Assembly (NCBI RefSeq): GCF_001724135.1 | Contig: NZ_MEDS01000007.1 | Coordinates: 1-64,000, forward strand | Direction of reading: 5' to 3' | Source of the DNA: Comamonas sp. SCN 65-56 | GTDB taxonomy: Bacteria; Pseudomonadota; Gammaproteobacteria; Burkholderiales; Burkholderiaceae_C | Length of the DNA: 64,000 bases | Shown: piece by piece, positions 10,393-31,369 of the stretch | Layout of the letters: every line of letters starts with the position of its first letter | Numbering within the stretch: position 1 is the first letter of the stretch | The notes under the pieces: generated by a model | What the model saw: only the letters and a program-made list of their open reading frames with translations | Database searches by the model: none | Told to the model about the DNA's origin: nothing | Program-made: the position numbers and the translations under genes

Positions 10393-10522
10393 GAAAGAGG
10401 GGGATGAGAGGCGGGCAAGCATACCGCGTTCACACAGGCGACAACGGCGGCGCGGCAGCCGCGCCACAATGAGCCATCCGGGCAGCATGGCCCGGCAACC
10501 ACCCCTCAGGAGACGCTGCGCC

Positions 10523-14690: not shown

Positions 14691-15508
14691 TGCCGGCGTT
14701 CGGTCTCATCATCGTTGGCGACGAAATCCTCTCGGGCAAGCGCGTGGACAAACATCTGCCCACGGTCATTCGTCTGCTGGGCGAGCGCGGGCTGTCTCTT
14801 TCGTGGATGGAGTTGGTGGGTGACGACCGTGAGCGCATCACCGCTGCGCTGCAGCGAGCCTGTGCAGGCAGTGACGTGGTCTTCAGCTGCGGCGGCATTG
14901 GCGCCACGCCCGACGACCACACGCGCCAGTGCGCGGCGGCGGCGCTGGGCGTGCCACTGCAGCCGCACGCCGAGGCGCAGGCCCTGATCACCGAGCGCAT
15001 GCAGGATGTGGCACGCGAGAAGGGCGAGGCGTTCGAGGCGCAGCGGCCAGACAACCGGCAGCGCCTGCAGATGGGGGTGCTGCCCGAGGGCGCGCGCATC
15101 ATCCCCAATCCGTACAACAAAATTGCGGGTTTTTCCTGCGCCGGGCGGGGTGGCAGTCAGGTGCATTTCGTGCCTGGTTTCCCCGTCATGGCCTGGCCGA
15201 TGATCGAGTGGGTGCTGGAGAATACCTGCCGGCCGTGGTTTCACCGCGCGCCGCAACTGGAGCAATCGGTGGTGCTGTACGGCGCAATGGAGTCGGCCTT
15301 GACGCCGCTGATGGAGCGCATCGAGGCCGAGCACCCGGACATCAAGGTCTTCAGCCTGCCCAGTGTCGATCACCCGGTGCATGGCGCGCACATCGAGCTT
15401 GGTGTGAAAGGCGCGGCGGCGCGCGTGCCGGCGGCCTGGCAGGCGCTGCTTGCGGCGCTGCACGAGATGCGGGTGAGCATGGGGCCGGAGATCGAGCGAC
15501 GGCATTGA
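14690..15508 (+). CDS. Molybdopterin-binding (MoaB/Mog) domain protein, CinA-like
   Basis: 272 residues. GLIIVGDEILSGKRVDKH at the start and FSCGGIGATPDDHT are the MoaB/Mog fold motifs seen in competence/damage-inducible protein A and in nicotinamide-nucleotide recycling proteins. The C-terminal amidase half of full CinA is absent, which is usual for this shorter betaproteobacterial type. The ATG at 14690 overlaps the upstream stop (TGATG). Function not established. Confidence 0.82.
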   Translation: MPAFGLIIVGDEILSGKRVDKHLPTVIRLLGERGLSLSWMELVGDDRERITAALQRACAGSDVVFSCGGIGATPDDHTRQCAAAALGVPLQPHAEAQALITERMQDVAREKGEAFEAQRPDNRQRLQMGVLPEGARIIPNPYNKIAGFSCAGRGGSQVHFVPGFPVMAWPMIEWVLENTCRPWFHRAPQLEQSVVLYGAMESALTPLMERIEAEHPDIKVFSLPSVDHPVHGAHIELGVKGAAARVPAAWQALLAALHEMRVSMGPEIERRH

Positions 15509-15547: not shown

Positions 15548-17167
15548 ATGTCACAAGCGCCGCCACCGTCTTTTGCCGACAAGCCGTCACGGCACATGCT
15601 TTGGCGGATCGTCCTTGAAAACACCATCGTCGGGATCTCGTACATGCGCGACCGCAAGCTGGTGTGGTCCAACCCGCGGATGGCGCAGATCTATGGGTAC
15701 GAACCCGGCGAGCTCGATGGACAACCGGTGCGCATCCTGTATGCCAGCGATCACGATTACGCTGAAGTCGGGCAAATGATCGCGGCGAAATTCAACAACC
15801 ACGAGTTCTATACCCACGAGCGTTCGCAGATTCGCAAGGACGGCGAGGTTATCTGGTGCCGTATTTCCGGCAGATTGCTGGAGCCCTTGGGGAAGGCATC
15901 GGCATCGGTCTGGGTTATCCAGGAGATCACCGACAAAAAACGTGCGGAAGACCAGATTCGCCGCATCAATCAGCGCCTGGAGCAAACTGTCGCGCGCCGC
16001 ACGCTCAACCTCTCGCGCAAGAATGCCGCGTTGCGTGAAGAGATCGAGCGACGACGGGCCGCGCAGGCGGCTTCGGTGGAGAGTCGGGAAAAGTACCAGA
16101 CCCTGTTTCGCCACGTGCCTTTGGGTTTACTGGTTTTGGATGCCGGCGGCGAGGTGGTCGAGGTCAATCGTACGCTGCAGCAGTACCTTGGCGTTTCCAC
16201 GCGTTCCGCTCTGGCCAAGGCATTGAGCGATTCCTCTTATGTGCAATTACCCGATGGAGGAACGACATCATTGGCATCCTTGGTTCGGGAGCATCGTTAT
16301 GTCCCTACATCCGCAGATCCGTTGATCTTCGTTTGGGAGCGATCCAGTCGCAGGAGAAGGGTCATCACCATGGTGGCCACCGCCTTGGCGCACGGACTCG
16401 GCCATGCGTTCGTGTTCACTGATGTGACGGAACAGCGTCGGCGCAGCGAGCGTGAGCGGGTGCAAGAAGCCGCGCTGGCCCATGCGGGTCGGCTCTCGTT
16501 GATGGGACAGATGACCTCGGCGCTGGCGCACGAGTTGGGCCAGCCACTGAATGTGGCCCAGAGCTATCTGGCTGGGGTAATGCGGCGCTTGGACGCGGAT
16601 GCGTCGCCCGAGATCGTGCAGGCGATGGCCAAGGCTGCCGCACATCTGGAGCAGGCCGGTGCGATCATTCGCAATGTCCGGGGGTTTGTTTCGCGCCAGC
16701 ACTACCGACCTGCGCAGGCAGTGGATTTGCCGGAGTTGCTCAATCAGACGCTGACACTTTTGGAACATCCCTTGCGCTCGGCGTCGACCCGCGTGAAGAC
16801 ATCGATTGATGATGGGCTAGTACCCATCAATGGCAATGCCGTCGAGGTACAGCAGGTTCTGGTCAATCTGGTGATGAACGCGATCGAGGCCATGCACGGC
16901 ACCCCGGCGGCCGAGCGCTGGGTCGAGATCAGGCTGGCACAGGAGGCGGATGCGTTCGCGTCCGTCACGATTGCGGACCATGGCCCGGGCGTACCCGCCG
17001 AACTTGCGCCGCGATTGTTTGATCCCTATGTCACCACCAAGGCCGATGGCCTGGGGATGGGGCTCATGATCTGCCGGACCATCATCGAATCGCACGGTGG
17101 TGCATTGCGGCTGCTCAATGCCCGCCGTGGCGCGGTCTTCCGTTTTACCCTGCGCCAAACCAAGTGA
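15548..17167 (+). CDS. PAS-domain sensor histidine kinase
   Basis: 539 residues with no membrane segment, so a cytoplasmic sensor. One PAS domain spans about 20-130, a basic coiled coil 135-180 and a second PAS domain about 185-300. The phosphoacceptor box ALAHELGQPL puts the histidine at about 327. The ATPase domain has NLVMNAIEA, DHGPGVP and GLGMGL. Soluble double-PAS kinases with FixJ-type partners commonly sense aromatic compounds or redox state. Its stop overlaps the response-regulator gene. The ketone carboxylase operon begins 325 bp after the pair. Confidence 0.9.
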   Translation: MSQAPPPSFADKPSRHMLWRIVLENTIVGISYMRDRKLVWSNPRMAQIYGYEPGELDGQPVRILYASDHDYAEVGQMIAAKFNNHEFYTHERSQIRKDGEVIWCRISGRLLEPLGKASASVWVIQEITDKKRAEDQIRRINQRLEQTVARRTLNLSRKNAALREEIERRRAAQAASVESREKYQTLFRHVPLGLLVLDAGGEVVEVNRTLQQYLGVSTRSALAKALSDSSYVQLPDGGTTSLASLVREHRYVPTSADPLIFVWERSSRRRRVITMVATALAHGLGHAFVFTDVTEQRRRSERERVQEAALAHAGRLSLMGQMTSALAHELGQPLNVAQSYLAGVMRRLDADASPEIVQAMAKAAAHLEQAGAIIRNVRGFVSRQHYRPAQAVDLPELLNQTLTLLEHPLRSASTRVKTSIDDGLVPINGNAVEVQQVLVNLVMNAIEAMHGTPAAERWVEIRLAQEADAFASVTIADHGPGVPAELAPRLFDPYVTTKADGLGMGLMICRTIIESHGGALRLLNARRGAVFRFTLRQTK

Positions 17168-17787
17168 TGGAACCGAGATCTGTTCTCGTTTTGCTGGTTG
17201 ATGACGAGCCAGACGTGACGAATGCGTTGAGCTGGCTGCTCGATTCCGTCAAGCTGCGTTCGCGTGCATTCAATTCTCCGCGCGCGTTTCTTGACGCTTT
17301 GTGCGATGTTCCGCAACCGGCTTGCGCGGTGCTCGATTTGCGCATGCCCGAGATGAGTGGCCTGGAATTGCAGGTCAAGATGGCGGAAATGGGTTTGGAT
17401 TTTCCCCATCTTTTCCTCAGCGCCCACGGCGATGTGCCTGCGGCGGTTCGGGCGATGCAGGGAGGGGCCGTCAATTTTTTGCAAAAGCCCTTCAATCCCG
17501 AGGAATTCCTCAATGCGGTTCAAAAAATCGTCCGGATTGCCCGCGAGCGTTACGAGTCGCAAACCCGTGAACGGGATTTGAAAGATTTGCTGGAACGCCT
17601 GTCCGGCCGCGAGGCCGATGTCCTGGGCGAATTGGTGCGAGGGCGCACTAGCAAGGAAATTGCCAGGGCATTGGCCATCAGCCCCAAAACCGTCGATGCC
17701 CATCGTGCCAACATCATCCGAAAGCTTGACGTGCGCAATGTCGTCGATCTAGTTCGCATGGTCCAAAAGCTGCACAGCCAGCCGTAG
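17167..17787 (+). CDS. FixJ/NarL-type response regulator
   Basis: 206 residues. Receiver domain with acidic pocket D12-D13, phosphoacceptor D57 (LDLRMPEM) and lysine near 106 (LQKPFNP); LuxR-type helix-turn-helix at about 140-200 (LSGREADVLGELVRG, KTVDAHRANI). The ATG at 17167 overlaps the kinase stop; a GTG one codon earlier is an alternative. The operon position makes it the cognate partner of the kinase. The palindromes at 17866-17889 are candidate binding sites controlling the genes from 18112 on. Confidence 0.9.
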   Translation: MEPRSVLVLLVDDEPDVTNALSWLLDSVKLRSRAFNSPRAFLDALCDVPQPACAVLDLRMPEMSGLELQVKMAEMGLDFPHLFLSAHGDVPAAVRAMQGGAVNFLQKPFNPEEFLNAVQKIVRIARERYESQTRERDLKDLLERLSGREADVLGELVRGRTSKEIARALAISPKTVDAHRANIIRKLDVRNVVDLVRMVQKLHSQP

Positions 17788-18111
17788 CCACTCTTCCCTT
17801 TGCGTGTATCAATGAGGCATCTGCACGCCTGCCAAATAGTTGCAGGAAGGCAGAGCCTCAGGGTTTTTGCCTAAGGCAAATCCCTTAGGAAAATGGCTTG
17901 TGCGCATGGTAGTCGATCCGGATGCCAAGCTTGGCGCGCGCTCGTAAAGTGACGCCAGTCCTGCAGAGGCGCACTTGGATCAAAGGCGATGGTGGCAGCC
18001 GGCGGCACTTCCAAAGGGAGTGCTGCAACCTTGGCTGAGGCACTGTCTGCTGGCTTGACTGGCGCGAAGCTCCCGGGCTCCCCCTCGATTGGATCAACAA
18101 AGGAGACATTC
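17788..18111. other. 324-bp regulatory gap before the carboxylase operon
   Basis: It holds a possible stem-loop soon after the regulator gene (GAGGC...GCCTC flanking CTGCC...GGCAG, 17812-17858), the nested palindromes at 17866-17889, and a purine-rich AGGAG ribosome site at 18101-18105. A frame in phase with apcA is open from 17989, but I treat it as leader because only the ATG at 18112 has a ribosome site and matches the family N-terminus. Confidence 0.55.
17866..17889. promoter_or_regulatory. Nested palindrome, candidate response-regulator operator
   Basis: TTTGCCT-A-AGGCAAA (17866-17880) is a perfect 15-bp palindrome. Its centre CCTAAGG (17870-17876) also pairs with CCTTAGG (17883-17889) across six bases. 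Two CCTNAGG cores about 13 bp apart, upstream of the carboxylase operon and downstream of a LuxR-type regulator, would suit dimeric binding. Alternative hairpins in RNA are also possible. Confidence 0.5.
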
Positions 18112-20094
18112 ATGATCACCGTGGACATTGACACGGGCGGCACGATGACCGACGCACTGGTGTCGGATGGTGTGGCGCGCCATGCCTTCAAGGTAGACAC
18201 CACGCCGCACGACTACACGCAATCCTTTCTGGGATGCCTGCAAGAGGCGGCGCGCGTGCTCGACTACCCGAGTGTCGAACAGTTTCTGGACAAGGTGGGG
18301 TTGATCCGGTGGTCCTCGACCATCACCACCAATACCCTGGCCGAGCGCCGGGGCTCCAAGGTCGGCCTGTTGGTGGGCGAGGGCCAGGAGGAGCGCCTGT
18401 ACGGTCCGGTGCGCTCTCCCGTCGTCGGCGAGTTGGTGGACGAAGAATCCATCATCGGCCTGCCCGACAACCCCACGGCCACCGATATCCTGGTCGGCGT
18501 CAAGCAACTGCTGGAGACCGGCGTGCGTCGCATTTGCGTGTGCATGCCCAACTCGTTTCCCGACAATGCGCAGGAGCGCGCCATAAAGACAGTCATCGAA
18601 GGGCAATATCCGGATCACATCATCGGGGCCATTCCCGTCATGCTTGGCAGCGAGATGGCACCGCTGCGGCACGACCAGACACGCGTGCATTACTCGTTGA
18701 TGAACGCCTACACGCACACGCAGCTTGCGTCGTCGTTGTTCAAGGCCGAGGACATGTTGCGTGACGACTACCAGTTCCGCGGGACCCTGCTGATCGGCAA
18801 TACCAGTGGCGGCGTCGCGCGCATCAGCAAGACCAAGGCGGTGGACACGATGGAGTCCGGCCCGGTGTTTGGCACCTTTGGTGGCGCGCACATGGCGGGG
18901 CTTTACGGGCTCAAGGACGTGCTGTGCTTCGATGTCGGCGGCACCACGACCAAGGCTTCGGTCGTGCGCGATGGACACCCGGTCTACCAGCGCGGCGGTG
19001 AGCTCATGGAAGTGCCGGTGCAGACCTCCTTTGCCATGCTGCGTTCGGCGGCTATAGGCGGCGGCTCAATCGCCAGCGTCCGCGACGGGGCGTTGGCGCT
19101 GGGCCCCAAAAGCATGGGCGCAGCCCCCGGCCCAGCCTGCTACCAATTAGGCGGCAAGCAGGCCACCTTGACGGACGCCCTGCTGGTGCTGGGCTACATC
19201 GATCCGGCAAATTTCCTGGGAGGACACCGTCAGCTCAGCGTGGACGCGGCTCGCTCCGCGATCGAGCAGAACGTGGCCAAGCCGATGGGGCTTTCGGTGG
19301 ATGCGGCGGCACTCGCGATTCGCGAGGAAGCCGTGGAAATGATGGCCGACCTGGTGCGCAATCTTCTGGACGAGGCCAAGCTCGAGGCCAAGTCCACGAC
19401 GCTATTCGGTTTTGGCGGCAACGGCCCGATGTTCATTGCCTTTCTTGCGGAAAAGCTGGGCATGCCATCGGCCTATGCGTTTGACCTGGGGCCGGTGTTT
19501 GGCGCGTTCGGTTCATCCATCTCCGACGTGGTGCACGGCTATGAGCGCGGATTGTCCATGCGCTGGGGCGGCGATGACGCGCAAGCCCGTTTGCCCGGCA
19601 TCGTGCAGCAGATGAACGATCAGGCGCACCGCGACCTGCGTGGCGAAGGGTTTGATCCGAATGGAGCGGCGTACGACTGGGAGCTTGATCTGGGCGCTGG
19701 CGCGGACGAGGTTGCCACGGTCCGGGCCAGGACTGAGCCATCGGCGACGTCCGATGCGGTTGTCGCTGCCCTGGGCACCAGCGTGGTGTCGCAGGGGTTG
19801 GGCAAACCGCTAGTGTTGGCGATCCGCTTGGCCAGCCGCTTTTCAGTCGGTTCACACGCTGTGGCCGAAAAAAAATCAGCGGGCGTGAAGGCCAAGGCGG
19901 CATCGCGCGCGCTGCTGTTCGGCATTACGCCCGTGGCCGATGCGCGGGTGTTGGGCTGGGAGGCCATGAACCCCGGTGATGCCGTGCAGGGTCCTGCCGT
20001 GATCAATGGCGCCACCTTCACCTGCCCGGTGCCCCCGCACTGGACGCTGCGCATGGACAAGTTCGGCAACGCCCAACTCAGTCCGACGAAATAA
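18112..20094 (+). CDS. apcA: Acetophenone carboxylase-like subunit ApcA (HyuA-type)
   Basis: 660 residues (about 70 kDa), a hydantoinase A/oxoprolinase-type ATPase with two ASKHA phosphate loops: [10 protein letters not shown] (5-14) and FDVGGTTTK (about 272-280). Five consecutive genes here match apcABCDE of Aromatoleum in order and size (about 70, 15, 80, 75 and 32 kDa). In that enzyme the two HyuA-like subunits are reported to activate bicarbonate and the ketone enol with ATP, giving benzoylacetate from acetophenone. AGGAG precedes the ATG at 18112. The exact ketone used here is unknown; an acetone carboxylase is less likely because that has three subunits in another order. Confidence 0.82.
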
Positions 20095-20109
20095 ACACGG
20101 AGACACATC

Positions 20110-20505
20110 ATGGCCTACGAACGAATCCGCTTTACCGAATATCTTGATCTCGACATGAACGATGAGCACTGGCTTTGTCACGACTGCGGGACAAAGCTCA
20201 TATCGGCACGGGAAAACTACAAGAAAGGTTGCATGGTCGCCGAGCGCATGCCCGAAGAAATCCACAACCCGGTGATAGAGGGTGAGTATTCCTTCGCACC
20301 CGACAAGGACTGGGTCCGCATCGTGGAGTTTTATTGCCCGGGGTGTGCCCGGCAAATCGAAACCGAATATTTGCCCCCGGGACATCCGATCACGCACGAC
20401 ATCGAGCTTGACATCGACAGTCTCAAGCAGCGCCTTGCCAGCGGCGACTTGGTCGTGCGCGAGGGCAAATTGGTCAAAGGCAAAAAGCAAGGAGAGCACG
20501 CATGA
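20110..20505 (+). CDS. apcB: Acetophenone carboxylase-like small zinc subunit ApcB
   Basis: 131 residues (about 15 kDa). Two CxxC pairs, C23/C26 (CHDC) and C76/C79 (CPGC), form a likely zinc ribbon, as in the small subunits of acetophenone and acetone carboxylases. It sits 15 bases after apcA and overlaps apcC by ATGA, so subunits are made in step. The small subunit is structural in the known core complex. The zinc site may be what the CobW protein at 28290 serves. Confidence 0.82.
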   Translation: MAYERIRFTEYLDLDMNDEHWLCHDCGTKLISARENYKKGCMVAERMPEEIHNPVIEGEYSFAPDKDWVRIVEFYCPGCARQIETEYLPPGHPITHDIELDIDSLKQRLASGDLVVREGKLVKGKKQGEHA

Positions 20506-22694
20506 CTTCGCTGACGATACGTGACGCAGTCGATTCGATCGACATCGACATCGGCGGTACGTTCACCGACCTGGTGCTGACTTTCAACGGCGAACGCCAT
20601 ATCGCCAAATGCCCGACCACGCCACACGACCTGTCGGTCGGCTTTCTAAATGCGATCGAGGCGGCCGGAGAAAAGGTCGGCTTGACCACCGAGGAACTGC
20701 TGCCCAAGATCGACATCATGCGCTACAGCACCACCGTGGCCTTGAATCGCTTGCTGCAGCGCAAGGGCCCGCGCATCGGCCTGCTGACTACGGAAGGCCA
20801 TGAGGACGTGATCCTCATCGGTCGCGGTGCCCAATGGACCGATGGCAAGCGCGTGACGGAACGGCGCAACATCGCCATCCAGACCAAGCCGCTGCCGCTG
20901 GTCGATCGGTCACTAACCCTGGGCGTGCGCGAGCGCATCGACTCGGCGGGCCAGATCGTGCGCCCGCTGGACGAGGAAGATGTGCGCCAGAAGCTGCGTA
21001 CGCTCATGGAGCGTGGTGCGCGCGCCATCGTGGTCTCTTTGCTGTGGAGCTTTGCCAACCCGATTCATGAACAGCGGGTGCGCGAGATTATTCGCGAGGA
21101 ATACAAGGAGTACCACATCGGCTTTCTGCCGGTGGTGCTGTCGTCGGCTGTGGTGTCCAAGAGCGGCGAGTACGAGCGCACGATGACGGCGGTGCTCGAT
21201 GCCTACCTGCAGCGTTCCATGCAGAACGACATCGGGGCCACTTGGGACAAGTTGCGCGAAAGCGGCTATCGCGGTGCTTTCCTGATGATCCACAACTCGG
21301 GTGGCAGCGCCGACATCTTCAAGACGCCCGCTTCACGCACGTTCAACGGCGGCCCAGTCGCAGGCCTCATGGGCGCTGCCTATTTCGCCGAGCGGCTTGG
21401 CTACCGCAATGTGGTTGCCGCCGACGTGGGCGGCACCAGCTTCGATGTCGCGCTGGTGGTCGAGTCAAGTGTGCGCAACTACAACTTCCGCCCGGTAATC
21501 GATACCTGGATGGTCAACGTCACGATGATGGAGACCATCTCGATCGGGGCGGGTGGTGGCTCCATCGCCAAGGTGGACGGCAGCCGCCTGTCCGTCGGGC
21601 CAGAAAGTGCAGGCTCCATGCCGGGGCCGGTTTGCTACGACCTTGGCGGCACCGAACCCACGGTGACGGATGCCGACGTTGTGCTCGGCTATATCAATCC
21701 GGATGGCTATTTTGGTGGCCGCATGCCGCTGAGCCGCGCCAAGGCTGAAAAGGCGATTCGCGAGAAGGTTGCCGCGCCCCTGGGCGTCGAGGTGGTGGAG
21801 GCTGCGGCCCTGATCCGCCACGTGGTCGATGAGAACATGACCAGCGCCATCAAGCGCCAGGTGCAGATGCGCGGGTATCACCCGGAGGACTTCGTCGTTT
21901 TCGCGTTCGGCGGCGCAGGCCCGACGCACATGACTGGGTTTCGCGGCGATGTACCCAAGGCTGTGGTCTTCCCGGCGGCACCGGTTTTCTGTGCGATGGG
22001 CTCGTCCATCATGGATATCGTGCACATGTACGAACAGTCCCAGCGCATGGTGTTCATGCAGCCGATGAGCGAAAAGCTGGTGATCGCCCCTGCGCAATTC
22101 AATGCCGTGGTCGATGTCCTCATCGACAAGGCCCAGCGCGAGCTGCAAAGCGAGGGCCTGGCGGTAGAAGATGCGCAATACACCCTGGAGTTGGACATGC
22201 TCTACGGCGGGCAGGTGAACGTCAAGCGTGCAGCGTCTCCGCTCTTGCACATTCGCAGTGACGCGGATGCGCAAGCCATCTATGACGCTTTTGAAAAGGA
22301 ATTTTCCGAAGCCTTTTCTCCGCTGGTGGTGAATAAGCCGGGAGGCGTCTTTTTGGACAACTTCGTGCTGCGCGTCACCGTGCCGACCTGGAACCCGGAA
22401 CTGCCGGTACATCAACTGCAAGGCGTGGACGCTTCTGCGGCGCGCATTGGCGAGCGCAAGGCCTACTGGCCTCAGACCAAGCAATGGGTCCAGACACCTG
22501 TGTACCAGTGGGAGCAGTTGCAGCCGGGCAACGAGATCATGGGCCCGGCAATTATCGAAGCCGAGTTCACGACCATCGTTGTGCCACCGACCGACAAATT
22601 CGGGATCGAAAAACACGGGCTGGGCGTGTTGGAGCCCATCACGCCGCCGACCCGCCGCAAGCGCGTCATGTCGCGCATCGCAGTCGCTGCTTGA
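20502..22694 (+). CDS. apcC: Acetophenone carboxylase-like subunit ApcC (HyuA-type)
   Basis: 730 residues (about 80 kDa), the second HyuA-like ATPase of the set. SIDIDIGGTFTD (12-23) and ADVGGTSFD (about 306-314) are its phosphate loops. It is longer than ApcA, as in the known enzyme where the two related chains divide the two ATP-dependent steps. The ATG overlaps the apcB stop. HyuA pairs are also found in 5-oxoprolinases and N-methylhydantoinases, but those lack an ApcB homologue. Confidence 0.82.
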   Translation: MTSLTIRDAVDSIDIDIGGTFTDLVLTFNGERHIAKCPTTPHDLSVGFLNAIEAAGEKVGLTTEELLPKIDIMRYSTTVALNRLLQRKGPRIGLLTTEGHEDVILIGRGAQWTDGKRVTERRNIAIQTKPLPLVDRSLTLGVRERIDSAGQIVRPLDEEDVRQKLRTLMERGARAIVVSLLWSFANPIHEQRVREIIREEYKEYHIGFLPVVLSSAVVSKSGEYERTMTAVLDAYLQRSMQNDIGATWDKLRESGYRGAFLMIHNSGGSADIFKTPASRTFNGGPVAGLMGAAYFAERLGYRNVVAADVGGTSFDVALVVESSVRNYNFRPVIDTWMVNVTMMETISIGAGGGSIAKVDGSRLSVGPESAGSMPGPVCYDLGGTEPTVTDADVVLGYINPDGYFGGRMPLSRAKAEKAIREKVAAPLGVEVVEAAALIRHVVDENMTSAIKRQVQMRGYHPEDFVVFAFGGAGPTHMTGFRGDVPKAVVFPAAPVFCAMGSSIMDIVHMYEQSQRMVFMQPMSEKLVIAPAQFNAVVDVLIDKAQRELQSEGLAVEDAQYTLELDMLYGGQVNVKRAASPLLHIRSDADAQAIYDAFEKEFSEAFSPLVVNKPGGVFLDNFVLRVTVPTWNPELPVHQLQGVDASAARIGERKAYWPQTKQWVQTPVYQWEQLQPGNEIMGPAIIEAEFTTIVVPPTDKFGIEKHGLGVLEPITPPTRRKRVMSRIAVAA

Positions 22695-22718
22695 CCCCGT
22701 TTATCCAAGGAGAATCAC

Positions 22719-24773
22719 ATGCCTATTCCCAGCCTTGAACAAAAGCTCGAATGGCTCAAGCCCTCACCCGCGACGGAACGAGAGCTGGACCTTGCCGCGC
22801 AAATCGACCCGGCCACGTTCGAGATCGGATTCCAGCGCACCAACGACATTCTTGATGAGGCGATGGACGTTTTTGTGCGCTCGTGCCGCTGCGCCATGGG
22901 CGTCGCTGGCGATTCGCTGGTGGCCATCATGACCGCAGAGGGCGACATCATCAACGGCTCATGCGGTACTTATCTGCACGCAGTAATACCGCCGCTGTTC
23001 ATCAAGTACATCCTCACCCACCACAAGGACACCATCCGCGATGGCGACCTCTGGTTCATGAATGACGCCGTCTATGGCGGCGTGCACAACCCCGACCAAG
23101 CCGTCGCGATGCCGGTGTACTACGAAGGTAAGCTCGTGGCGTGGACCTGCGCGCTCGTGCACACGACGGAAACCGGAGCAACTGAACCAGGGGGCATGCC
23201 GGTTTCTGCGACCTCGCGCTTCGAAGAAGGCATGAATCTGCCGCCGCTGCGCATCGGCACCAACTTCAAGTTGGCCGATGACGTGGTGGACATGTTCGTT
23301 GCCTTTGGCATTCGCGCGCCTTCGATGATTGCGGTCGACTTGAAGGCGCGCTGCACCACGGCCGACCGGGTTCGCACGCGCTTGATCGAGCTGTGCGACC
23401 GCGAGGGCCCTGACTATCTCGTGGGACTGTTTCGCAAGATGCTCCAGGTGGCCGAGGCTGGCGCCAAGGAACTGATCGACCAGTGGCCCGACGGCACCTA
23501 CCGCTGCGTGACCTTCAGTGACGCGGTGGGGTTGAAGCAGGGTCTGATCAAAAACTGCGCCATGACGGTCGTGAAGAAGGGTGATCGTTTGCTGGTTGAC
23601 CTGAGCGGATCGGGGCCGGAAACCCCGTCGCCCTACAACGCGCACCCGCAAGCAGCGATCGCGCATTTTTCCAACTACATCTACGAATATCTCTTCTACG
23701 ATCTGCCCATCTCCAACGGCACGTTCGCACCGATCGACTTCAAGTTCGGCCAGAACACCTGCTTGTCGCCGGATGCGCGCGCGGCAACATCGTGCTCGGT
23801 GATGATTTCGACGGGCGTCATGAGCGCGGTGCACAACTGCGCCGCCAAGGCCATGTTCTCTACTGCCTTGTGGAAACAGGCAGGCGCCCCGCTGGGCTAC
23901 GGTGGCAATGCGCTGGTGCTGGCGGGCCTGAATCAATGGGGCGTACCGTTCGCGGACATGCTGGCGTATTCCATCAATACCGAAGGGCAGGGCGCGCGCC
24001 CAGAGCAGGACGGGATCGATGCGTTTGGTTTCCCGTGGTGCGTGTTTGGTCGAGCGCCCAATACTGAAGTCGTTGAAAACGAATTCCCGCTTTTGATCCC
24101 CTTGTCCAACCACTGGGCCGACTCCTGCGGCCACGGCAAATACCGGGGCGGCGTGGGTACGGCGCAGATGTGGGTTGCGCACCACGTGCCTGCTGTCTAC
24201 ATGATGGCCATTGCCGACAACTCCAAACTGCAGACACCGCAGCCCCTGTTCGGCGGCTATGCGCCCTGTACTGTGCCGGGGTTTGGCATTCGCCGGGCCA
24301 ACGTCAAGGAGCTCATGGCTAAGGGCGATCCCAAACTGACCATGGATCTGCAGAAAGTACTGCAGGACAAGCCTATCGATGGCGACTACGAGGTGGAGTT
24401 CCAAGGTCGGTCAGTGCGCCCGTACAACAACGGGGACATTGCTACCTTCGCTTTCTCCGCCGGTGGGACGGGCTATGGCGACGTGCTGGACCGCGATCCG
24501 CAGGCGGTGGGCGTGGACATTGCCAAGGGCATCGTGACGGCAGATACCGCGCGCAGCGTCTACAAGGTGGTCTGGGACGAAGGCAACCAACGTGTGGATG
24601 CCGATGCGACGGAGCAATCGCGCAACAAGGAGCTGCAGGCGCGCAAGCAGCGCGGGCGGCCCTATGCAGAGTTCGAGGCTGACTGGCTCAAGCAGAAGCC
24701 GCGCGACGAAATCCTGATGTACTACGGTAGCTGGCCTGACGCGCGTGTGACCACGCCGCTGATGCGTGCCTGA
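22719..24773 (+). CDS. apcD: Acetophenone carboxylase-like subunit ApcD (HyuB-type)
   Basis: 684 residues (about 75 kDa) of the hydantoinase B/oxoprolinase family: DPATFEIGFQRTNDILDEAM near the start, TSRFEEGMNLPP, and the SGSGPETPSPYN and FGQNTCLSPDARA segments. In carboxylases this subunit bridges the two HyuA chains. AAGGAG (22707-22712) precedes the ATG, 24 bases after apcC. Confidence 0.84.
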   Translation: MPIPSLEQKLEWLKPSPATERELDLAAQIDPATFEIGFQRTNDILDEAMDVFVRSCRCAMGVAGDSLVAIMTAEGDIINGSCGTYLHAVIPPLFIKYILTHHKDTIRDGDLWFMNDAVYGGVHNPDQAVAMPVYYEGKLVAWTCALVHTTETGATEPGGMPVSATSRFEEGMNLPPLRIGTNFKLADDVVDMFVAFGIRAPSMIAVDLKARCTTADRVRTRLIELCDREGPDYLVGLFRKMLQVAEAGAKELIDQWPDGTYRCVTFSDAVGLKQGLIKNCAMTVVKKGDRLLVDLSGSGPETPSPYNAHPQAAIAHFSNYIYEYLFYDLPISNGTFAPIDFKFGQNTCLSPDARAATSCSVMISTGVMSAVHNCAAKAMFSTALWKQAGAPLGYGGNALVLAGLNQWGVPFADMLAYSINTEGQGARPEQDGIDAFGFPWCVFGRAPNTEVVENEFPLLIPLSNHWADSCGHGKYRGGVGTAQMWVAHHVPAVYMMAIADNSKLQTPQPLFGGYAPCTVPGFGIRRANVKELMAKGDPKLTMDLQKVLQDKPIDGDYEVEFQGRSVRPYNNGDIATFAFSAGGTGYGDVLDRDPQAVGVDIAKGIVTADTARSVYKVVWDEGNQRVDADATEQSRNKELQARKQRGRPYAEFEADWLKQKPRDEILMYYGSWPDARVTTPLMRA

Positions 24774-24794
24774 TGGAGAGGGCTGGAGAAGGCC

Positions 24795-25691
24795 ATGAGC
24801 AGTTCAGTCTGGTTCAAGCGCATGCAGGATTTGGCGCGAGGCGCGGGTTTTGCCCATGCACCCTTGTTTGCCCCCTTGTTGTTCGGCGCCGCGGCACAAA
24901 TCGAGGCGATTGCGCCCGAGGCAATGGCGCAGGACGGGACTCGATTGCGCAAAAATATGACGGAGCTGCGCCGGGCGCTCGGACTGGAGACCGTGGCGTG
25001 CGCCGTGCCTAGCGCCATGGAGGCGCAGGCGCTGGGCGTGCCTGTAGCTGAAAACCAGTGGCCACCTCGGCCTTCAGGCGAACTCTCTGCCCTGAACATG
25101 GAAATCTCCAGCGAACAGTTGCTGGCCGTCCCGCGGATCGCGGCCGCGCTTGAGGCGATTCAGCAGTGGAGGGCCACCCCTGATGAGCAGGTGATCGTCG
25201 CCGCGCTCACCGGACCGGCCACGCTGCTGGCGCAATTGCGCGCAGCAGGTGCCGCGTTGACCGATGAGGAGGGCTATGACCTGGTGGGGCGCACGCTGGC
25301 CACTCTGGCCAGGATGTACGCCGAGGCACAGGTGCAGGTGCTGCAGTTGCACGAAACGGAACTGCCCGGCGACGAGGGGGCCATCGACGGCTGGAAGGGC
25401 GCGTTGGGCACGATCGGCAATGTCTCGCGGTTTCATCGCGTGCCCCCGCTGCTTGTGGTCGAGGGGGCAGCGCCGGCGAGTTGGCCGGTGCAAGTGGTGG
25501 CGTGCCCGGGGAGTACTCAGACGCCCGTCCCTCCTCGCCCGCATGGACAGGCGTGGGCGAGCGATCCTGTCGCTTGGCCGAGCCTGCCCACGCAGAGCGG
25601 CAACCTGCGCTTGATCACGACCGTGGCCGAGGTGCCTGCCTCGACACAGGTTTCGGATCTGGTTGCAGCTATGGGTCGGATTCGCTCATGA
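24795..25691 (+). CDS. apcE: Acetophenone carboxylase-like subunit ApcE, UroD/MetE-like fold
   Basis: 298 residues (about 32 kDa), matching the fifth, separately purified subunit of acetophenone carboxylase by position and size. The segment VIVAALTGPATLLAQL (about 134-149) followed by a long helix and VQVLQLHETELP resembles the barrel of uroporphyrinogen decarboxylase and cobalamin-independent methionine synthase relatives. Its catalytic contribution is not known to me. It starts 21 bases after apcD and overlaps the ligase gene (ATGA). Confidence 0.72.
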   Translation: MSSSVWFKRMQDLARGAGFAHAPLFAPLLFGAAAQIEAIAPEAMAQDGTRLRKNMTELRRALGLETVACAVPSAMEAQALGVPVAENQWPPRPSGELSALNMEISSEQLLAVPRIAAALEAIQQWRATPDEQVIVAALTGPATLLAQLRAAGAALTDEEGYDLVGRTLATLARMYAEAQVQVLQLHETELPGDEGAIDGWKGALGTIGNVSRFHRVPPLLVVEGAAPASWPVQVVACPGSTQTPVPPRPHGQAWASDPVAWPSLPTQSGNLRLITTVAEVPASTQVSDLVAAMGRIRS

Positions 25692-27037
25692 AGTACTGGA
25701 ATGAAGAGCTCGAAACCAAACCCTGGGCAGAGGTCGAACAGTGGCAGGCTGGGCAGATCGCTGCCATGCTGAAAGACCTGCGTCGACGCTCACTGCTTTA
25801 TGCAGAGTTGCATGCAGGTGTGGCGCGAGATCTGCCGTTGCGCGGTTTTGCGGATTTGCAGGCGCTGCCCTTCACGCTCAAGGACCATGTGCGTGCCGCG
25901 CAGGAGGCGGCCTCGGACGAAAGGCCCTTTGGCCGCAATCAGGCGATGGCCAAGAGTGAGATCGTTCAGGCGATCGCTTCGTCTGGCACCACCGGCAAGC
26001 CTTTGTACTACGCGCTGACGCAACGCGACACCGAGATGTTTACCGATGCCATCGCCAACACCTGGTTCACCGGAGGCGTGCGCAAAGGAGATACGGTGGC
26101 CCATTTGGTCGGGCTCCCGATGGTCGCGGGCGGTATGCCATATGCCGAGGGCTTTCGGCGCATCGGAGCCACCTTGTGCTGGCTGGGGGGGTTCCCGACC
26201 GACAGAATCCTGCGGGAGTTGCGCAACCTGCGTTGCACAACCTTGCTGGCGACCACGTCGTTTGGCCTCTATCTGGCAGACCAATGGGAGCAATTGGGGC
26301 GTGAACCCGGTGCCGTGCCTTCTCATTTGCATACGGTGCTTTGTGGCGGCGAACCCGGCTTGAATCAGCCGGAAATCCGTGAGCGCATCACGCACGGTCT
26401 GGGTATCAAGGCCTTGCGGGAATGCATGGGCCTTGGCGACGTGGTTTCCGCGATGTGGTGCGAATGCGAGCACGGTGGCGGCATGCATTTCAACGCCCAG
26501 AAATACGTGGCAATCGAATTGATCGATCCGGCCACGGGAGAGGTACGCCCTTGGGAAGATGGGGCTACGGGCGAGATCGTCTACACCACGTTTGCGCGGG
26601 ATGCCACGCCGGTCGTGCGTTATCGCTCGCGCGATCACGCCTTGATCACCGGTGTGGGTGCTTGCAAATGTGGTCGTACCAGTCCGAGGATTCGATGCAT
26701 TGGCCGCACGGACGATATGCTCATCTACAAGGGGATGAATGTCTTTCCGACGGCGATTCGCGATCTGATTACCACCCATTTTTCGGGGCGCGTCGAGCCC
26801 TTGCTGCGTATCTGGAAGGAGAGCAGGGACCAGGTTCGATTCGATGCGCCGATTCCGGTGGACGTGGAGGTCGCGGAGGCCTTTTCGATCGAACATGGCC
26901 AGGCACTGGCCCGGCAGATTGAGGAGCAGGTGCGAGGCCAGTTGCAGGTGCGTGTGGCCGTCAATGTCCTGGCGCATGGCGAGTTGCCACGTGGGGTCTA
27001 CAAAAATTCCCTACTTGCGGTACGTGAGCCCGCCTGA
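25688..27037 (+). CDS. PaaK-type AMP-forming CoA ligase (probable 3-oxoacid-CoA ligase)
   Basis: 449 residues of the phenylacetate-CoA ligase family: ATP loop SSGTTGKP (about 98-105), YRSRDHALI and the hinge GRTDDMLIYKGMNVFP. The ATG at 25688 overlaps apcE; the longer frame above is inside apcE. In the anaerobic acetophenone route the carboxylase product, benzoylacetate, must be converted to its CoA ester, and the gene after apcE does this (Bal). By position this enzyme is the counterpart, but it is of the short PaaK type. Substrate is inferred. Confidence 0.8.
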   Translation: MKYWNEELETKPWAEVEQWQAGQIAAMLKDLRRRSLLYAELHAGVARDLPLRGFADLQALPFTLKDHVRAAQEAASDERPFGRNQAMAKSEIVQAIASSGTTGKPLYYALTQRDTEMFTDAIANTWFTGGVRKGDTVAHLVGLPMVAGGMPYAEGFRRIGATLCWLGGFPTDRILRELRNLRCTTLLATTSFGLYLADQWEQLGREPGAVPSHLHTVLCGGEPGLNQPEIRERITHGLGIKALRECMGLGDVVSAMWCECEHGGGMHFNAQKYVAIELIDPATGEVRPWEDGATGEIVYTTFARDATPVVRYRSRDHALITGVGACKCGRTSPRIRCIGRTDDMLIYKGMNVFPTAIRDLITTHFSGRVEPLLRIWKESRDQVRFDAPIPVDVEVAEAFSIEHGQALARQIEEQVRGQLQVRVAVNVLAHGELPRGVYKNSLLAVREPA

Positions 27038-27099
27038 CGGGTGACCGCGTAGGCTCAACATCGCTCTGTGGAGCACATTTTTGTTTTGCAGGGTCAACA

Positions 27100-28290
27100 A
27101 TGAAGTTCGAACGTGCAGCCCTTCCAGTAGGCCATCTATGGTCTTCCCCCTTCGTACGCTGGCAAGGCGCACTGCAGGACGTGTCCAGCATCGACCTGGC
27201 GGCCGCCGTAACCAACGACGCGCTGGATGCACGCGGGATTGAACGTGCAAACATTGATACGCTGGTGTTGGGTACTACCGTGCCGCAAGCCTCGTCGTTT
27301 TACGCAGCCCCCTGGCTTGCGGCGCGATTGAAGCTGCCGAGCATCAGTGGGCCGCACTTGTCCCAGGCCTGTGCCACGTCAGTGGCTTGTCTCGTCGATG
27401 CCGCGATGCGGGCAGAGGTTGCGCCTGATGCCATGTCGCTGGTTGTAACCAGCGATCGCACAAGCAACGGCCCCTTGCTTGTCTATCCGCGAAATCAGGG
27501 GATGGGTGGCAGCCCGGCGGTGGAAAACTGGGTGCTGGACAATTTTGCGGCTGACCCGAATACTGGCCAGCCCATGATCGCGACGGCCGAAAACGTTGCA
27601 CGCGATGGCGGCATGTCGCGTGAGCGGTTGGACGAGCTGACGTTGCTGCGTTGGCAGCAATACCGAACGGCGCTGGCTGATGACAGGCGTGTGCAGCGCG
27701 CGTGGATGCAACCGGTTCGACTGGCCCGCGGGAAGGCGAAGCTGCTTGTGGTCGAAGAGGATCAAGGCGTTCACCCGTACACGACCGAAGGGCTGGCGCG
27801 GTTGGCGCCGGTGCAGCCTGGCGGTGTGGTCACATATGGCATGCAAACGCACCCGGCCGATGGCTGTGCGGGTGCGGTGGTCACTTCCAGTGAGCGTGCC
27901 AAAGCGCTTGATCGGGAGAAAGGGACAGTACGCTTGCTTGCGGCAGGATTTGCACGGGCTGGGCTGGCCGAAATGCCCAAAGCTGCCACGCTAGCTGCTG
28001 AGCGGGCTTTGGCTGACGCCGGTTTGACGGTGAATGACCTGGCATTGGCTCAGACCCACAACCCGTTTGTCGTCAATGACCTTTGGTTCCATCAGCGCAC
28101 CGGGTTTGATCTGGAGCGCATGAATGTATGGGGCTCGAGTCTGATTTACGGGCACCCTCAGGGGCCGACGGGTTTGCGCGGGATCGTGGAGCTTGTGCAT
28201 GCCCTGCGCGAGCGAGGCGGCGGTATCGGACTGTTTACCGGTTGCGCGGCCGGCGACACGGGTGCTGCCCTGGTACTGAGAGTGGACTGA
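27100..28290 (+). CDS. Thiolase (acetyl-CoA acyltransferase)
   Basis: 396 residues. The nucleophilic cysteine is C91 (SQACATS), the histidine lies in YGHPQGPTG (about 350-358) and the second cysteine in TGCAAGDTG (about 381-389). The last motif departs from the usual CIGGGQG, which may reflect a bulky 3-oxoacyl substrate. After the ligase it would cleave a 3-oxoacyl-CoA with CoA to acyl-CoA and acetyl-CoA, for instance benzoylacetyl-CoA to benzoyl-CoA. It overlaps the CobW gene by one base. Confidence 0.85.
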
Positions 28291-29330
28291 TGGCAGTCCG
28301 GCTGACCATACCGGTCACGATTGTCACGGGCTTCCTTGGCGCCGGCAAAACCACGCTGATCAATCGCCTGCTGCGCGAACCGCATGGTGAGCGCATCGCC
28401 GTCATTGAAAATGAATTCGGAGCGGTGGGAGTCGACGCCGAGTTCCTTGCCAAGGGCGGCGAAGAAATCATCGTGCAGCTGGACAATGGCTGCCTGTGTT
28501 GCACGGTGCGGGGCGACCTTGCGCGCGCGCTGCAGCAGTTGCTGGAGCAGGCCAAGGCGGGAAATTTTGAGTTTGACAGGGTATTGATCGAGACCAGCGG
28601 CATGGCCGACCCCGGCCCGGTCATCCAAACCTTTATGGCCGAGACGGCGATCGAAGCGCGGTTTCACCTCGATGGAGTCGTGACGCTGGTTGACGCGCTC
28701 AACGTCCAGGCTGAAATCGAGCGTATTGAGCATCGCTCCCAGATTGGGCACGCAGACCGGTTGCTGCTCACCAAGACCGATCTTGTTGGCCCTGAGCGCG
28801 TGGCAGAGGTGCGTGATTTGCTCGCTAGCGTCAACCCGCGCGCACCAGTCGTGGAGGGTAGTTTGCCGACCGTTGCCATCGACCAGTTGATGTCGCACCT
28901 GTTCGAGATTCGGGGGTTTATGACCGATTACATCCCGCGTGACGAAATAGCACGTTCGCTGCACGGTCTGGCGTTGCTGGAAGCGGGGCAGCAACGCATG
29001 CGCCCAGTGGGACTGGCGCGCCACACCAGAGACGTGGTGACCACCGTCTTTCTCGCAGACAAGCCGCTGGATTTGGACCTGCTGAACGGATTTCTGGATG
29101 CTGCGATTGCGCGTTATGGCGCGCGGTTGTGGCGCTGCAAAGGCATTGTCCATGCACTGGGCCAGCGTCAGCGCCTGATTGTGCAAGGGGTGCAAGGTGC
29201 CATTCAGATTGGTAGCGGCACCACATGGCGCCCTTACGAGCCTAAGCAGACTGTGCTGGTTTTCATCGGCGAATCGATAGAGGCGAGCCATATTCAGGCG
29301 GGCTTGGGTGCGTGCATCGCACCGGGCTGA
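28290..29330 (+). CDS. CobW/COG0523-family metal GTPase
   Basis: 346 residues. Walker A GFLGAGKT (14-21), metal site CLCC (C68, C70, C71), ETSGMADP and the guanine-binding TKTD (about 158-161) define a COG0523 metallochaperone GTPase; a CobW C-terminal domain follows. These proteins insert Zn, Fe, Co or Mn into target enzymes. It overlaps the thiolase stop (TGATG) as the last gene of the operon. Its most likely client is the carboxylase, whose small subunit has a Cys4 site. This is inference from position. Confidence 0.85.
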
Positions 29331-29399
29331 GCGTCTTAGAATCGCACTCTTTTGCCTGCGGCCTGCCGGGCCGCACGGCCCACTTACTGGAGCAGCCTG

Positions 29400-30815
29400 A
29401 TGGCCAAGACCGTCGCCGACGTGATGCGCATGGTGAAAGAGAGCGAGGTGCGCTTCGTCGACCTGCGCTTTACCGACACGCGCGGCAAGGAGCACCACGT
29501 CACCGTCCCCGTCTCGCATTTCGACGAGGAAAAATTTGCCAGCGGCCACGCGTTCGACGGTTCGTCGATGCCGGGCTGGAAGGGCATCGAGGCCTCGGAC
29601 ATGCAGCTTATGCCCGATCCGGCGACGGCCAACATCGACCCGTTTTTCGAGGAAACCACCCTCATCCTGCAGTGCGACGTGGTCGAGCCGGGCGATGGCA
29701 AGGCCTACGACCGCGATCCGCGCTCGATTGCCAAACGGGCAGAGGCGTACCTCAAGGCGTCGGGCCTGGGTGATACCGCGTACTTCGGGCCTGAACCGGA
29801 ATTTTTCATCTTTGACGGCATCCGCTGGGGCACCGAGCCGGGCCGCGTGTTTTTCGAGATCGAGGAGTACGAGGCGCCGTGGAATAGCGGCACCAAGTTC
29901 GATGGCGGCAACCGCGGCCATCGCCCCGGCACCAAGGGCGGCTACATGCCGGTGCCACCGGTGGACAGCAGCCAGGATTTGCGCGCCGAAATGGCTGGGG
30001 TGCTGGAATCGCTGGGTATTCCGGTCGAGGTGTTCCACCACGAGGTGGGCGGCGCGGGGCAGAACGAGATTGGTACCAGGTTTTCCACGCTGGTGCAGCG
30101 CGCGGACTGGACCCAGTTGATGAAGTATGTGATCTGGAATGTCGCCAATTCCTACGGCAAAACCGTCACCTTCATGCCCAAGCCCTATGCGGGCGACAAC
30201 GGCAGCGGCATGCATGTGCACCAGTCGATCTGGAAGGATGGCAAGAACCTGTTCGCGGGGGATGGCTATGCCGGGTTGTCGGATTTTGCGCTGTATTACA
30301 TCGGCGGGTTGATCAAGCATGCCAAGGCGCTCAACGCCATCACCAACCCGGGCACCAATAGCTACAGGCGCCTGGTGCCGGGCTTCGAGGCGCCGGTGAA
30401 GCTCGCCTACAGCGCACGCAACCGCTCGGCGTCGATCCGCATTCCCTACGTCGCCAACCCCAAGGGGCGGCGGGTGGAGGCACGCTTCCCTGATCCGCTG
30501 ATGAATCCTTACCTGGGTTTTGCCGCACTGATGATGGCGGGGCTCGATGGGGTCGAAAACAAGATCCACCCCGGCGAGGCTGCGACCAAGGACCTCTACC
30601 ACCTGCCGCCCGAGGAAGACCGGCTGGTGCCCACGGTCTGCGCCAGCCTGGAAGAGGCGGTGGCGGCGCTGGATGCCGATCGCGGCTTTCTCACGCGCGG
30701 CGGCGTTTTCTCCGATGGCATGCTCGATGCTTACCTGGAGCTCAAGCAGGCCGAAATCCAGCGCGTGCGCATGACACCGCATCCGGTCGAGTACGACCTG
30801 TATTACGCTTTGTGA
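29400..30815 (+). CDS. glnA: Glutamine synthetase type I
   Basis: 471 residues, full length for GSI-beta. [38 protein letters not shown] and the adenylylation loop with tyrosine in DLYHLPPEE are all present. It makes glutamine from glutamate and ammonia. The ATG at 29400 was chosen by homology; a 16-codon extension is open above it. ntrBC do not follow it in this window. Confidence 0.96.
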
Positions 30816-30895
30816 CGTCAGCCGCAGGCATGCGCGTGCGTTTGGGTAATACTTGTCCGCACGATCGCATCTGTGGCTGCTCTTCAAGGGATTGC

Positions 30896-31369
30896 ATGAA
30901 GATTTTTTTGTTCGCCCTGACCGCTCTTGCCGGCACGCTGGTGCTGCAACCCGCCAGTGCCCAAGACAAAATTTACCGCTGCGGCAACGAATACACCAAC
31001 AACGTGAGCGATGCCAAGGCCCGCGGCTGCAAACTGGTGGAAGGCGGCAATGTCACCGTGCTGCAGGCCACCAAGCCCGCGGCAGCGCCGGCAGCAACGT
31101 CGCCGGCCAATGCGCCCAAGGTGAGCGATGCCGACCAGAAGGCGCGCGACTCGGATCGGCGCGCCATCTTGCAGGATGAATTGCGCAAGGCCGAGGGCAA
31201 GCTGGCAGAACTGCGCAAGGAATACAACGGCGGCGCGCCGCAGAAAAGCGCGCTGGAGCTGCGCAACACGCAGGTTTACCAGGATCGCGTGACCGAGCTC
31301 AAGGCCAACATGGACCGCGCGCAGGCCGACGTGGACGGCATCCGCCGCGAGCTCGACCGCACTAAATAA
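30896..31369 (+). CDS. Periplasmic protein of unknown function
   Basis: 157 residues. A clear signal peptide (MKIFLFALTALAGTL, cleavage after PASA near residue 22) is followed by IYRCGNEYTN, a short cysteine-containing segment like DUF4124 N-termini, an alanine/proline linker and a C-terminal coiled coil (about 85-155). It lies 80 bases after glnA, with its 3' end overlapping the convergent phosphatase gene by eight bases. Function unknown. Confidence 0.78.
   Translation: MKIFLFALTALAGTLVLQPASAQDKIYRCGNEYTNNVSDAKARGCKLVEGGNVTVLQATKPAAAPAATSPANAPKVSDADQKARDSDRRAILQDELRKAEGKLAELRKEYNGGAPQKSALELRNTQVYQDRVTELKANMDRAQADVDGIRRELDRTK

Follow-up and report, generated by a model that had tools for sequence, protein, structure and literature searches.

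An island in a Comamonas genome predicted to encode an inducible acetophenone-carboxylase pathway with its own thiolase and CobW-family GTPase

The genome of Comamonas sp. SCN 65-56 carries an island that, very probably, was acquired horizontally and encodes an inducible acetophenone-carboxylase (Apc) pathway. The window – the whole 64,000-nucleotide stretch analysed, with genes annotated up to about 43 kb – contains eight intact genes, apcA to cobW, all on the plus strand between 18112 and 29330. A sequence-only reading had given these positions as the unit; the unit is larger, and takes in the two-component system (15548–17787) that lies directly upstream of apcA on the same strand. The genes, their order, orthology and conserved residues, the insertion site and the linkage between genes are matters of observation, and are as follows.

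15548–17167, plus strand: PAS-domain histidine kinase, likely the ketone sensor (Pfam PAS, HisKA, HATPase_c)
17164–17787, plus strand: LuxR-type response regulator (Pfam Response_reg and GerE)
17788–18111, plus strand: apcA upstream region, with a putative conserved promoter/operator half at about 17889–17924 (motif matrix)
18112–20094, plus strand: apcA, subunit alpha', putative bicarbonate kinase (Hydantoinase_A; 69% identity to EbN1/5L9W)
20110–20505, plus strand: apcB, the small subunit with a zinc finger, called gamma in 5L9W (Acetone_carb_G; 83% to EbN1)
20502–22694, plus strand: apcC, subunit alpha, putative ketone kinase (Hydantoinase_A; 79% to EbN1)
22719–24773, plus strand: apcD, subunit beta, HyuB type (Hydantoinase_B; 80% to EbN1)
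24795–25691, plus strand: apcE, subunit epsilon, URO-D/MtaA-like fold (55% to EbN1 ApcE)
25688–27037, plus strand: PaaK-type CoA ligase, putative benzoylacetate-CoA ligase (Bal) orthologue (AMP-binding; 70% to EbN1)
27100–28290, plus strand: predicted benzoylacetyl-CoA thiolase from a separate thiolase branch (catalytic residues, apc linkage)
28290–29330, plus strand: GTPase of the CobW family, predicted to accompany Apc and deliver its metal (cobW and CobW_C)

The close packing noted in the earlier reading is real: apcB/apcC and apcE/ligase share 4-base overlaps, the thiolase and GTPase genes share 1 base, and the remaining intergenic gaps between 18112 and 29330 are 15–62 bases. For apcA the likely start is 18112 (the mechanical open reading frame begins at 17989). 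That reading had also recognised ApcABCDE in five consecutive genes, followed by a CoA ligase, a thiolase and a metal GTPase, and had proposed a self-contained route from a methyl ketone to acyl-CoA plus acetyl-CoA. The five-gene match (18112–25691) stands in order, size and sequence; the three genes behind it belong to the AMP-binding, thiolase and cobW families, and the gene content for the route, from ketone via 3-oxoacid and CoA ester to acyl-CoA plus acetyl-CoA, is complete.

Identification of the carboxylase is based on comparison with Aromatoleum aromaticum EbN1, whose reference locus (L150) encodes proteins 100% identical to the chains of crystal structure 5L9W. ApcA, ApcB, ApcC, ApcD and ApcE of the window are 69, 83, 79, 80 and 55% identical to their EbN1 counterparts; their lengths (660/131/730/684/298 residues, against 658/129/732/684/303 in EbN1) are those of Apc rather than Acx or Hyd, and the gene order alpha', gamma, alpha, beta, epsilon is the apcABCD(E) order of PMC5214803. 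Both ApcA and ApcC contain the ASKHA ATP motifs; E248, D274 and K281 are conserved in ApcA along with its ATP motifs, ApcB retains four zinc cysteines (Cys23/26/76/79), and the fingerprint R/KERiDsxG is present as RERIDSAG at position 143 of ApcC and absent from ApcA. NCBIfam Apc models are the top match for all five subunits. ApcB passes its cut-off (NF042974, 257.4 against 250 bits), and ApcA (NF042960, 1113.7 against 1250), ApcC (1403.5 against 1500), ApcD (NF042976, 1354.5 against 1500) and ApcE (370.6 against 450) fall short of the equivalog cut-offs, a point against the identification. EbN1's own four proteins, however, clear their thresholds by margins of just 2.8–80.5 bits, so the cut-offs are set near that single sequence; an equivalog cut-off is in any case a naming threshold and not a biochemical trait.

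The epsilon subunit matches no Pfam family at E 0.001, scores 319 bits against the solved ApcE structure 9FOU, and is predicted with a pLDDT of 94.2. The predicted model aligns with 4AY7, 4AY8 and URO-D entries at TM-scores of 0.61–0.71 (query length), with rmsd 4.6–6.5 and 9–16% identity; the profile matches 4AY7 at E 0.0059, and 14 of 20 ApcE members hit Pfam URO-D with an E-value of at most 0.1 (best 8.8e-6), the window's own value being E 0.029, below the cut-off. A new fold is ruled out, because 9FOU exists (released 2025-12-24) and the fold is URO-D/MtaA-like; a literature search found no paper on 9FOU. The ligase is 70% identical to the EbN1 ligase that follows apcE and is probably the orthologue of benzoylacetate-CoA ligase.

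By analogy with the EbN1 enzyme (PMC5214803) the reaction steps would run as follows, the identities of substrate and inducer and the parts assigned to thiolase and CobW being our inference. The kinase/regulator pair would detect the ketone and switch on apcABCDE-bal-thl-cobW. ApcC would spend one ATP on phosphorylating an aryl methyl ketone in its enol form, and ApcA one on phosphorylating bicarbonate; the complex with docked ApcE would couple the two into a 3-oxoacid, which for acetophenone would be benzoylacetate. Bal would convert the 3-oxoacid to its CoA thioester, the thiolase would cleave this to an acyl-CoA (benzoyl-CoA) and acetyl-CoA, and the CobW GTPase would load or guard a metal that the complex needs, the zinc in ApcB being the simplest candidate. 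BoxB is encoded in the genome (908.7 bits), which provides an outlet for benzoyl-CoA; its aerobic degradation would fall to the host Box pathway.

That the complex is instead an ATP-dependent hydrolase of the hydantoinase, oxoprolinase or caprolactamase kind is exceedingly improbable. The HyuA and HyuB domains are common to both, but two-gene hydAB hydrolases are without the second HyuA, zinc-finger and epsilon subunits (PMC5214803), caprolactamase models reach at most 467 bits, and hydantoinase-type PDB entries score far under 5L9W. The sequence-only reading had named grouping with N-methylhydantoinases or oxoprolinases as the outcome that would speak against Apc. Sequence comparison shows no such grouping, the best solved relatives being the corresponding 5L9W subunits: ApcA, ApcC and ApcD score 995–1330 bits against 5L9W (ApcB 242 bits), and oxoprolinase, acetone carboxylase and N-methylhydantoinase structures score 91–376 bits. 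The phylogenetic check that it proposed was run for ApcA as a quick tree of 80 rows, in which the window and EbN1 fall within an 11-row group (99% SH-aLRT); characterised hydantoinase and acetone carboxylase rows lie outside the scope of this tree, and it is the scores that exclude Hyd and Acx. Within the Apc type, it is possible, if rather doubtful, that the enzyme naturally acts on a relative of acetophenone instead, be it propiophenone, an acetophenone with a substituted ring or some other aryl alkyl ketone. The predicted ApcC pocket departs from EbN1 at one of seven positions (Q344 is Glu), and among 15 ApcC rows at least 71% identical to EbN1 this Glu is peculiar to the window; the terminal branch of the window ApcA is long (0.52 in the 80-row tree); and no ethylbenzene route was found in the genome, where the single match to ethylbenzene dehydrogenase is 30% identical over 354 of 981 residues with an internal stop, and the top match to EbN1 phenylethanol dehydrogenase is 36% identical (C16). 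A short-chain dehydrogenase at 10286–11314, considered for the latter role, is a weak candidate at 34%, below C16. Against a different substrate stand the six other pocket residues (L81, F281, N282, P285, I333, T345), which match EbN1, and the linked ligase with its 70% identity to EbN1 Bal. More distant groups often have Glu at position 344, and this position says little for or against either substrate, since an attempt at a consensus for substrate sites failed (PMC5214803).

We predict that the thiolase at 27100–28290 is a benzoylacetyl-CoA thiolase. Its residues C91, H352 and C382 are the nucleophile cysteine, the histidine of GHP and the C-terminal cysteine, and the usual NEAF loop reads HNPF. 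All three residues align with 4N44 and are invariant in all 14 aligned members. In 2016 the benzoylacetyl-CoA thiolase of EbN1 was called 'so far unknown' (PMC4729919), and a distinct thiolase branch beside Apc genes fits this missing enzyme. It is unlikely, in our judgement, that the linked thiolase uses another 3-oxoacyl-CoA while general thiolases split benzoylacetyl-CoA. Such a division of labour would accord with the sparse linkage (4 of 14 close apc loci) and with EbN1, which grows on acetophenone (PMC4729919) with no linked thiolase in the 55 kb read around its apc genes; yet 11 of 80 loci, from two phyla, have the thiolase beside Apc genes (four of the 11 are Pseudonocardia, and L059 and L070 are near-identical), and EbN1 and three kin each carry a single relative, 47–48% identical, at E 1e-40 or better. 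In L173 and L174, the two read widely, this relative lies near HyuA/HyuB genes; those of G842 and G962 have no HyuA match within about 1.5 kb either side. If the L173/L174 neighbourhood is an indoleacetate cluster, 2-aminobenzoylacetyl-CoA would be cleaved there. The GTPase is a putative companion of Apc, predicted to deliver metal: it contains Pfam cobW and CobW_C with the motifs GFLGAGKT (P-loop) and GCLCCT (CxCC metal motif). Its being a passenger or general metal-stress factor that does not serve Apc strikes us as somewhat improbable. Partner and metal are predictions, the available sequence of L040 and L041, which extends about 4 kb past apcE and 10 kb ahead of apcA, shows no CobW gene, and the EbN1 copy lies 22 kb from bal, beside ethylbenzene genes. 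Against the passenger reading, the gene lies within 25 kb of apc in 12 of 14 close loci, that of EbN1 among them, and within 5 kb in nine (L031, L042 and L044, whose contigs end before apcE, are set apart from the 14); and the 12 linked copies plus that of the window form one group (support 97/98) apart from four paralogues of three genomes, these being four of the eight paralogues found.

The enzyme kind is already known, a single Apc-branch enzyme having been characterised by 2017 (PMC5214803); what goes beyond the literature found is the CobW companionship, the Apc-linked thiolase branch and Glu344. We propose, as a view that could equally prove right or wrong, that proteobacterial Apc has a dedicated CobW GTPase needed for maturation and a dedicated aroylacetyl-CoA thiolase branch – the missing last enzyme – both of which sit here in one transferable operon, and that EbN1 has its CobW gene within the ethylbenzene cluster, while its thiolase may be lent by the indoleacetate pathway. 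As an independent, self-contained version of Apc with its own thiolase and GTPase, the island allows the ketone-to-acyl-CoA route to be studied as one block, and makes two questions experimentally approachable: which thiolase ends the pathway, and how metal enters Apc.

The island (about 15548–29330) lies between two genes that are adjacent in all ten family relatives examined, and was thus most likely acquired horizontally. GC3 is lower in the island (0.744) than in 18 hand-chosen flanking genes (0.841; 0.809 upstream, 0.852 downstream). Glutamine synthetase (29352–30815) is backbone and not a pathway gene, being found beside MoCF-like and EI24 genes in 10/10 relatives. No plasmid relative at 60% or above was present among 26 plasmid records. 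A Variovorax without Apc is reported in PMC8421498.

Of the 14 close loci, 11 have a kinase and regulator in the vicinity of apc, the regulators being 52–61% identical to that of the window; the AdiRS/EdiSR systems of EbN1 offer a comparison. Twelve of the 14 upstream regions compared share a strong motif (L041, L042 and L044 stand outside this set), which scores 246 against 90–100 for five letter-shuffled sets, with 40 starts for the real set and 15 for each shuffled one. With a matrix from the 12 relatives, window excluded, position 17889 on the plus strand is the top of both window strands (17.0 bits, the runner-up having 9.6); it is first with two of four matrices (17.0 against 9.6; 13.4 against 10.1) and not with the other two, and when each of the 12 relatives is left out in turn, two (L034, L038) do not rise above chance places in the window. 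The apcA upstream region of the window lacks the first (upstream) half of the motif seen in the relatives, and 17889–17924 is a putative promoter/operator half.

Compared with Apc and Bal of EbN1 (5L9W, 9FOU; PMC5214803, PMC4729919), the window shares the five-subunit order, the ligase adjoining apcE, the mapped motifs and a nearby two-component system, with core identity of 69–83%; it differs in having thiolase and CobW inside the operon, the kinase/regulator immediately 5' on the same strand, no adjacent ethylbenzene genes, and Glu344 in ApcC. Acetone carboxylase AcxABC (5SVB, 5M45) likewise combines HyuA/HyuB with a small zinc subunit, but has a single HyuA-type subunit and no epsilon (PMC5214803), whereas the window has two HyuA-type genes; its small subunit has 168 residues (chain C) against 131, and its scores are at most 376 bits against 1320–1330 for ApcC/ApcD with 5L9W. 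On fosmid p90H6 a CobW-like gene, a thiolase and a CoA ligase are tabulated beside acetophenone-carboxylase-like genes, the top matches listed including Azotobacter and Rhodoferax genes; the portion of that source available to us (PMC3676327) does not discuss a CobW–Apc link. The same full set of kinase, regulator, apcABCDE, bal, thiolase and cobW is found in an uncultured Burkholderiales (L037) and in Roseiarcus (L032, its cobW truncated by the contig end). In both, unlike the window, kinase and regulator are divergent from apcA, and both share the 36-base upstream motif of which the window keeps only part; in Roseiarcus a short-chain dehydrogenase gene lies between bal and the thiolase.

The sequence-only reading had proposed a complete ketone carboxylation pathway of the acetophenone carboxylase (Apc) type, and the pathway is real and complete: all eight genes are intact, tightly packed and on a single strand, a domain search of the eight returned the domains that had been claimed, and acetophenone-carboxylase models are the top NCBIfam match for each of the five subunits assigned as ApcABCDE. 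The pathway is of an already known kind, and two of its companion genes are testable. The genes, with the pair directly upstream (identified by domain search), are arranged as follows.

15548-17167: PAS histidine kinase gene, directly upstream of the apc genes
17164-17787: LuxR-type regulator gene, directly upstream of apcA
18112-25691, +: apcABCDE, with apcA starting at 18112, as already proposed
25688-27037, +: CoA ligase gene, overlapping apcE by 4 bases
27100-28290, +: thiolase gene
28290-29330, +: CobW GTPase gene, overlapping the thiolase gene by 1 base

For comparison, locus L150 was taken as Aromatoleum aromaticum EbN1 because it is 100% identical to all four chains of the Apc crystal structure 5L9W. 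Identity between window and EbN1 is 69% for ApcA, 83% for B, 79% for C, 80% for D, 55% for E and 70% for the ligase; sequence matches in the PDB are the 5L9W subunits for ApcA, B, C and D, and the solved ApcE, 9FOU, for ApcE. The features that characterize Apc in the available part of PMC5214803 are present in the window: gene order and subunit lengths, the fingerprint RERIDSAG in ApcC and in no other subunit, ATP motifs in both HyuA-type subunits, and the four zinc cysteines. Against Apc identity stands the fact that, of the five subunits, ApcB alone reaches its NCBIfam equivalog cut-off and the other four fall short; EbN1's own ApcA, C, D and E clear the same cut-offs by just 2.8 to 80.5 bits. 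Predicted ketone-pocket residues agree with the reference at six of seven places. In the ApcC pocket comparison (71 rows plus the reference) position 344 is Glu in the window, and in no other of the 15 rows of at least 71% identity.

An AlphaFold model of ApcE (built from 20 members; pLDDT 94.2) matches 9FOU with a TM of 0.88-0.95, followed by MtaA and uroporphyrinogen decarboxylases (0.61-0.71 by query length). Because of these latter matches the modeled epsilon subunit looks like a URO-D-superfamily protein – a likeness probably already known to the depositors of 9FOU, given that they deposited the ApcE structure.

ApcA of this kind looks rare within the samples searched. Among 399 genomes of the order, one match (380 bits) besides the window's ApcA was obtained at E 1e-100; a 369-genome sample of the class gave nine matches with an E of 1e-60 or lower, counting the window's, and apart from it two lie near 1100 bits; and 249 genomes of the EbN1 family gave four at E 1e-150. 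From a genome-collection scan 80 of 148 confirmed places were kept, and a quick tree of 80 ApcA rows places the window, on a rather long end branch, inside an 11-row group with EbN1 (99% SH-aLRT). Apc-like genes also occur in two metagenome bins titled Klebsiella pneumoniae (L049, L062); L049 is almost identical to L047, an uncultured gammaproteobacterium, and the bins are therefore probably mislabelled. In an Archaeoglobi bin (L048), apcABC are present together with the beginning of apcD (identities 43, 60, 61 and 53%), a sign either of an archaeon that carboxylates ketones or of a binning error.

Companion genes were counted in 14 close loci, all of which include apcE: L032-L041 and L043 (11 loci, L036 being counted together with L153 and L175 of genome G842, which has the same match scores), EbN1 (L150, L171), and genomes G941 (L152) and G962 (L154, L155, L172). 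Kinase and regulator are near apc in 11 of the 14, a ligase of the 58-72% group in eight, and a linked thiolase in four, with seven more among the remainder of the 80 loci. The CobW GTPase lies within 5 kb in nine loci and within 25 kb in 12 (the 10 kb for G962 presupposes a closed circle). The EbN1 orthologue (53% identity) is 22 kb from bal; the gene immediately before it encodes a short-chain dehydrogenase and itself follows putative ethylbenzene dehydrogenase genes. In a CobW tree drawn without outside reference, 13 Apc-linked copies including the window's form one group (97/98), apart from the four paralogues included out of eight. The simplest reading of the GTPase is a putative role in zinc delivery, because bound zinc is reported for Apc in PMC5214803. 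A literature search on CobW with acetophenone yielded, in the texts as available, nothing relevant besides PMC3676327, whose accessible part tabulates a CobW-like gene, a thiolase and a ligase beside Apc-like genes and passes no comment on them.

As of 2016 the benzoylacetyl-CoA thiolase of EbN1 was "so far unknown", two candidate genes being named in PMC4729919. The window thiolase falls under the NCBIfam cut-offs of the families among the matches listed (25 of 39), and its best PDB match reaches 114 bits, no higher; C91, H352, C382 and the HNPF loop are kept in all 14 members aligned. A single relative (47-48% identity; E 1e-40 or better) occurs in each of the genomes EbN1, G941, G842 and G962. 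By eye, those of G941 and EbN1 lie near HyuA/HyuB genes, with mutase-like subunits too in G941, and on this account fit an indoleacetate cluster. The final step of the indoleacetate pathway is cleavage of 2-aminobenzoylacetyl-CoA. In G962, a stretch of 34 residues encoded between cobW and a dehydrogenase gene (L172 19694-19795) shares 65% identity with the window thiolase, suggesting that this genome may once have had a linked copy, now lost. An ORF near this stretch resembles, by eye, a transposase.

A 36-base motif, TG.TGCGC.GCACTACG.GTTT..TTTA, is common to 12 of 14 upstream regions analysed (L031-L039, L150, L152 and L154), starting 113-182 bases before apcA; the linked LuxR-type regulator is likely to bind there. 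The window retains the second half alone, at 17889, the top place in 64 kb with two of the four matrices tried; a leave-one-out check was failed by two of the 12 relatives.

BoxB, which would give benzoyl-CoA an outlet, is present in the host genome (908.7 bits) and in four of five other genomes checked, the fifth having a 31-residue end match. Neither ethylbenzene dehydrogenase nor a close phenylethanol dehydrogenase was found in the host assembly (51 contigs, 95% complete). Given the cbb3 oxidase genes close by, the ketone is likely taken from outside and used aerobically or microaerobically.

GlnA searches matched 57 of 60 family genomes, including the host's own, and ten of the others were compared at the locus. 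In all ten an EI24 gene, a MoCF-like gene and glnA are neighbors; in the window a block (~15548-29330) stands between the MoCF-like gene (14690-15508; traced through an antisense ORF over it, named by eye) and glnA. GC3 is 0.744 in this island vs. 0.841 in 18 hand-picked flanking genes, and whole GC 0.615 vs. 0.649. Because the block splits conserved neighbors and its GC3 and GC are lower, the operon was most likely acquired. From 29352-31369 and on downstream the window carries glnA and a small gene, then low-molecular-weight phosphatase, metal P-type ATPase and cbb3 oxidase genes; in all ten relatives glnA and the small gene behind it precede kinase/regulator genes (ntrBC-like matches, 22-39%). 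A second GlnA above cut-off is encoded on another contig of the host assembly (C18). At 618-3925, adjoining a phage-type integrase gene (4787-5989), overlapping SIR2-like and HerA-like genes form a probable SIR2-HerA anti-phage pair, as their top PADLOC matches are SIR2 (310.7 bits) and HerA (521.7 bits).
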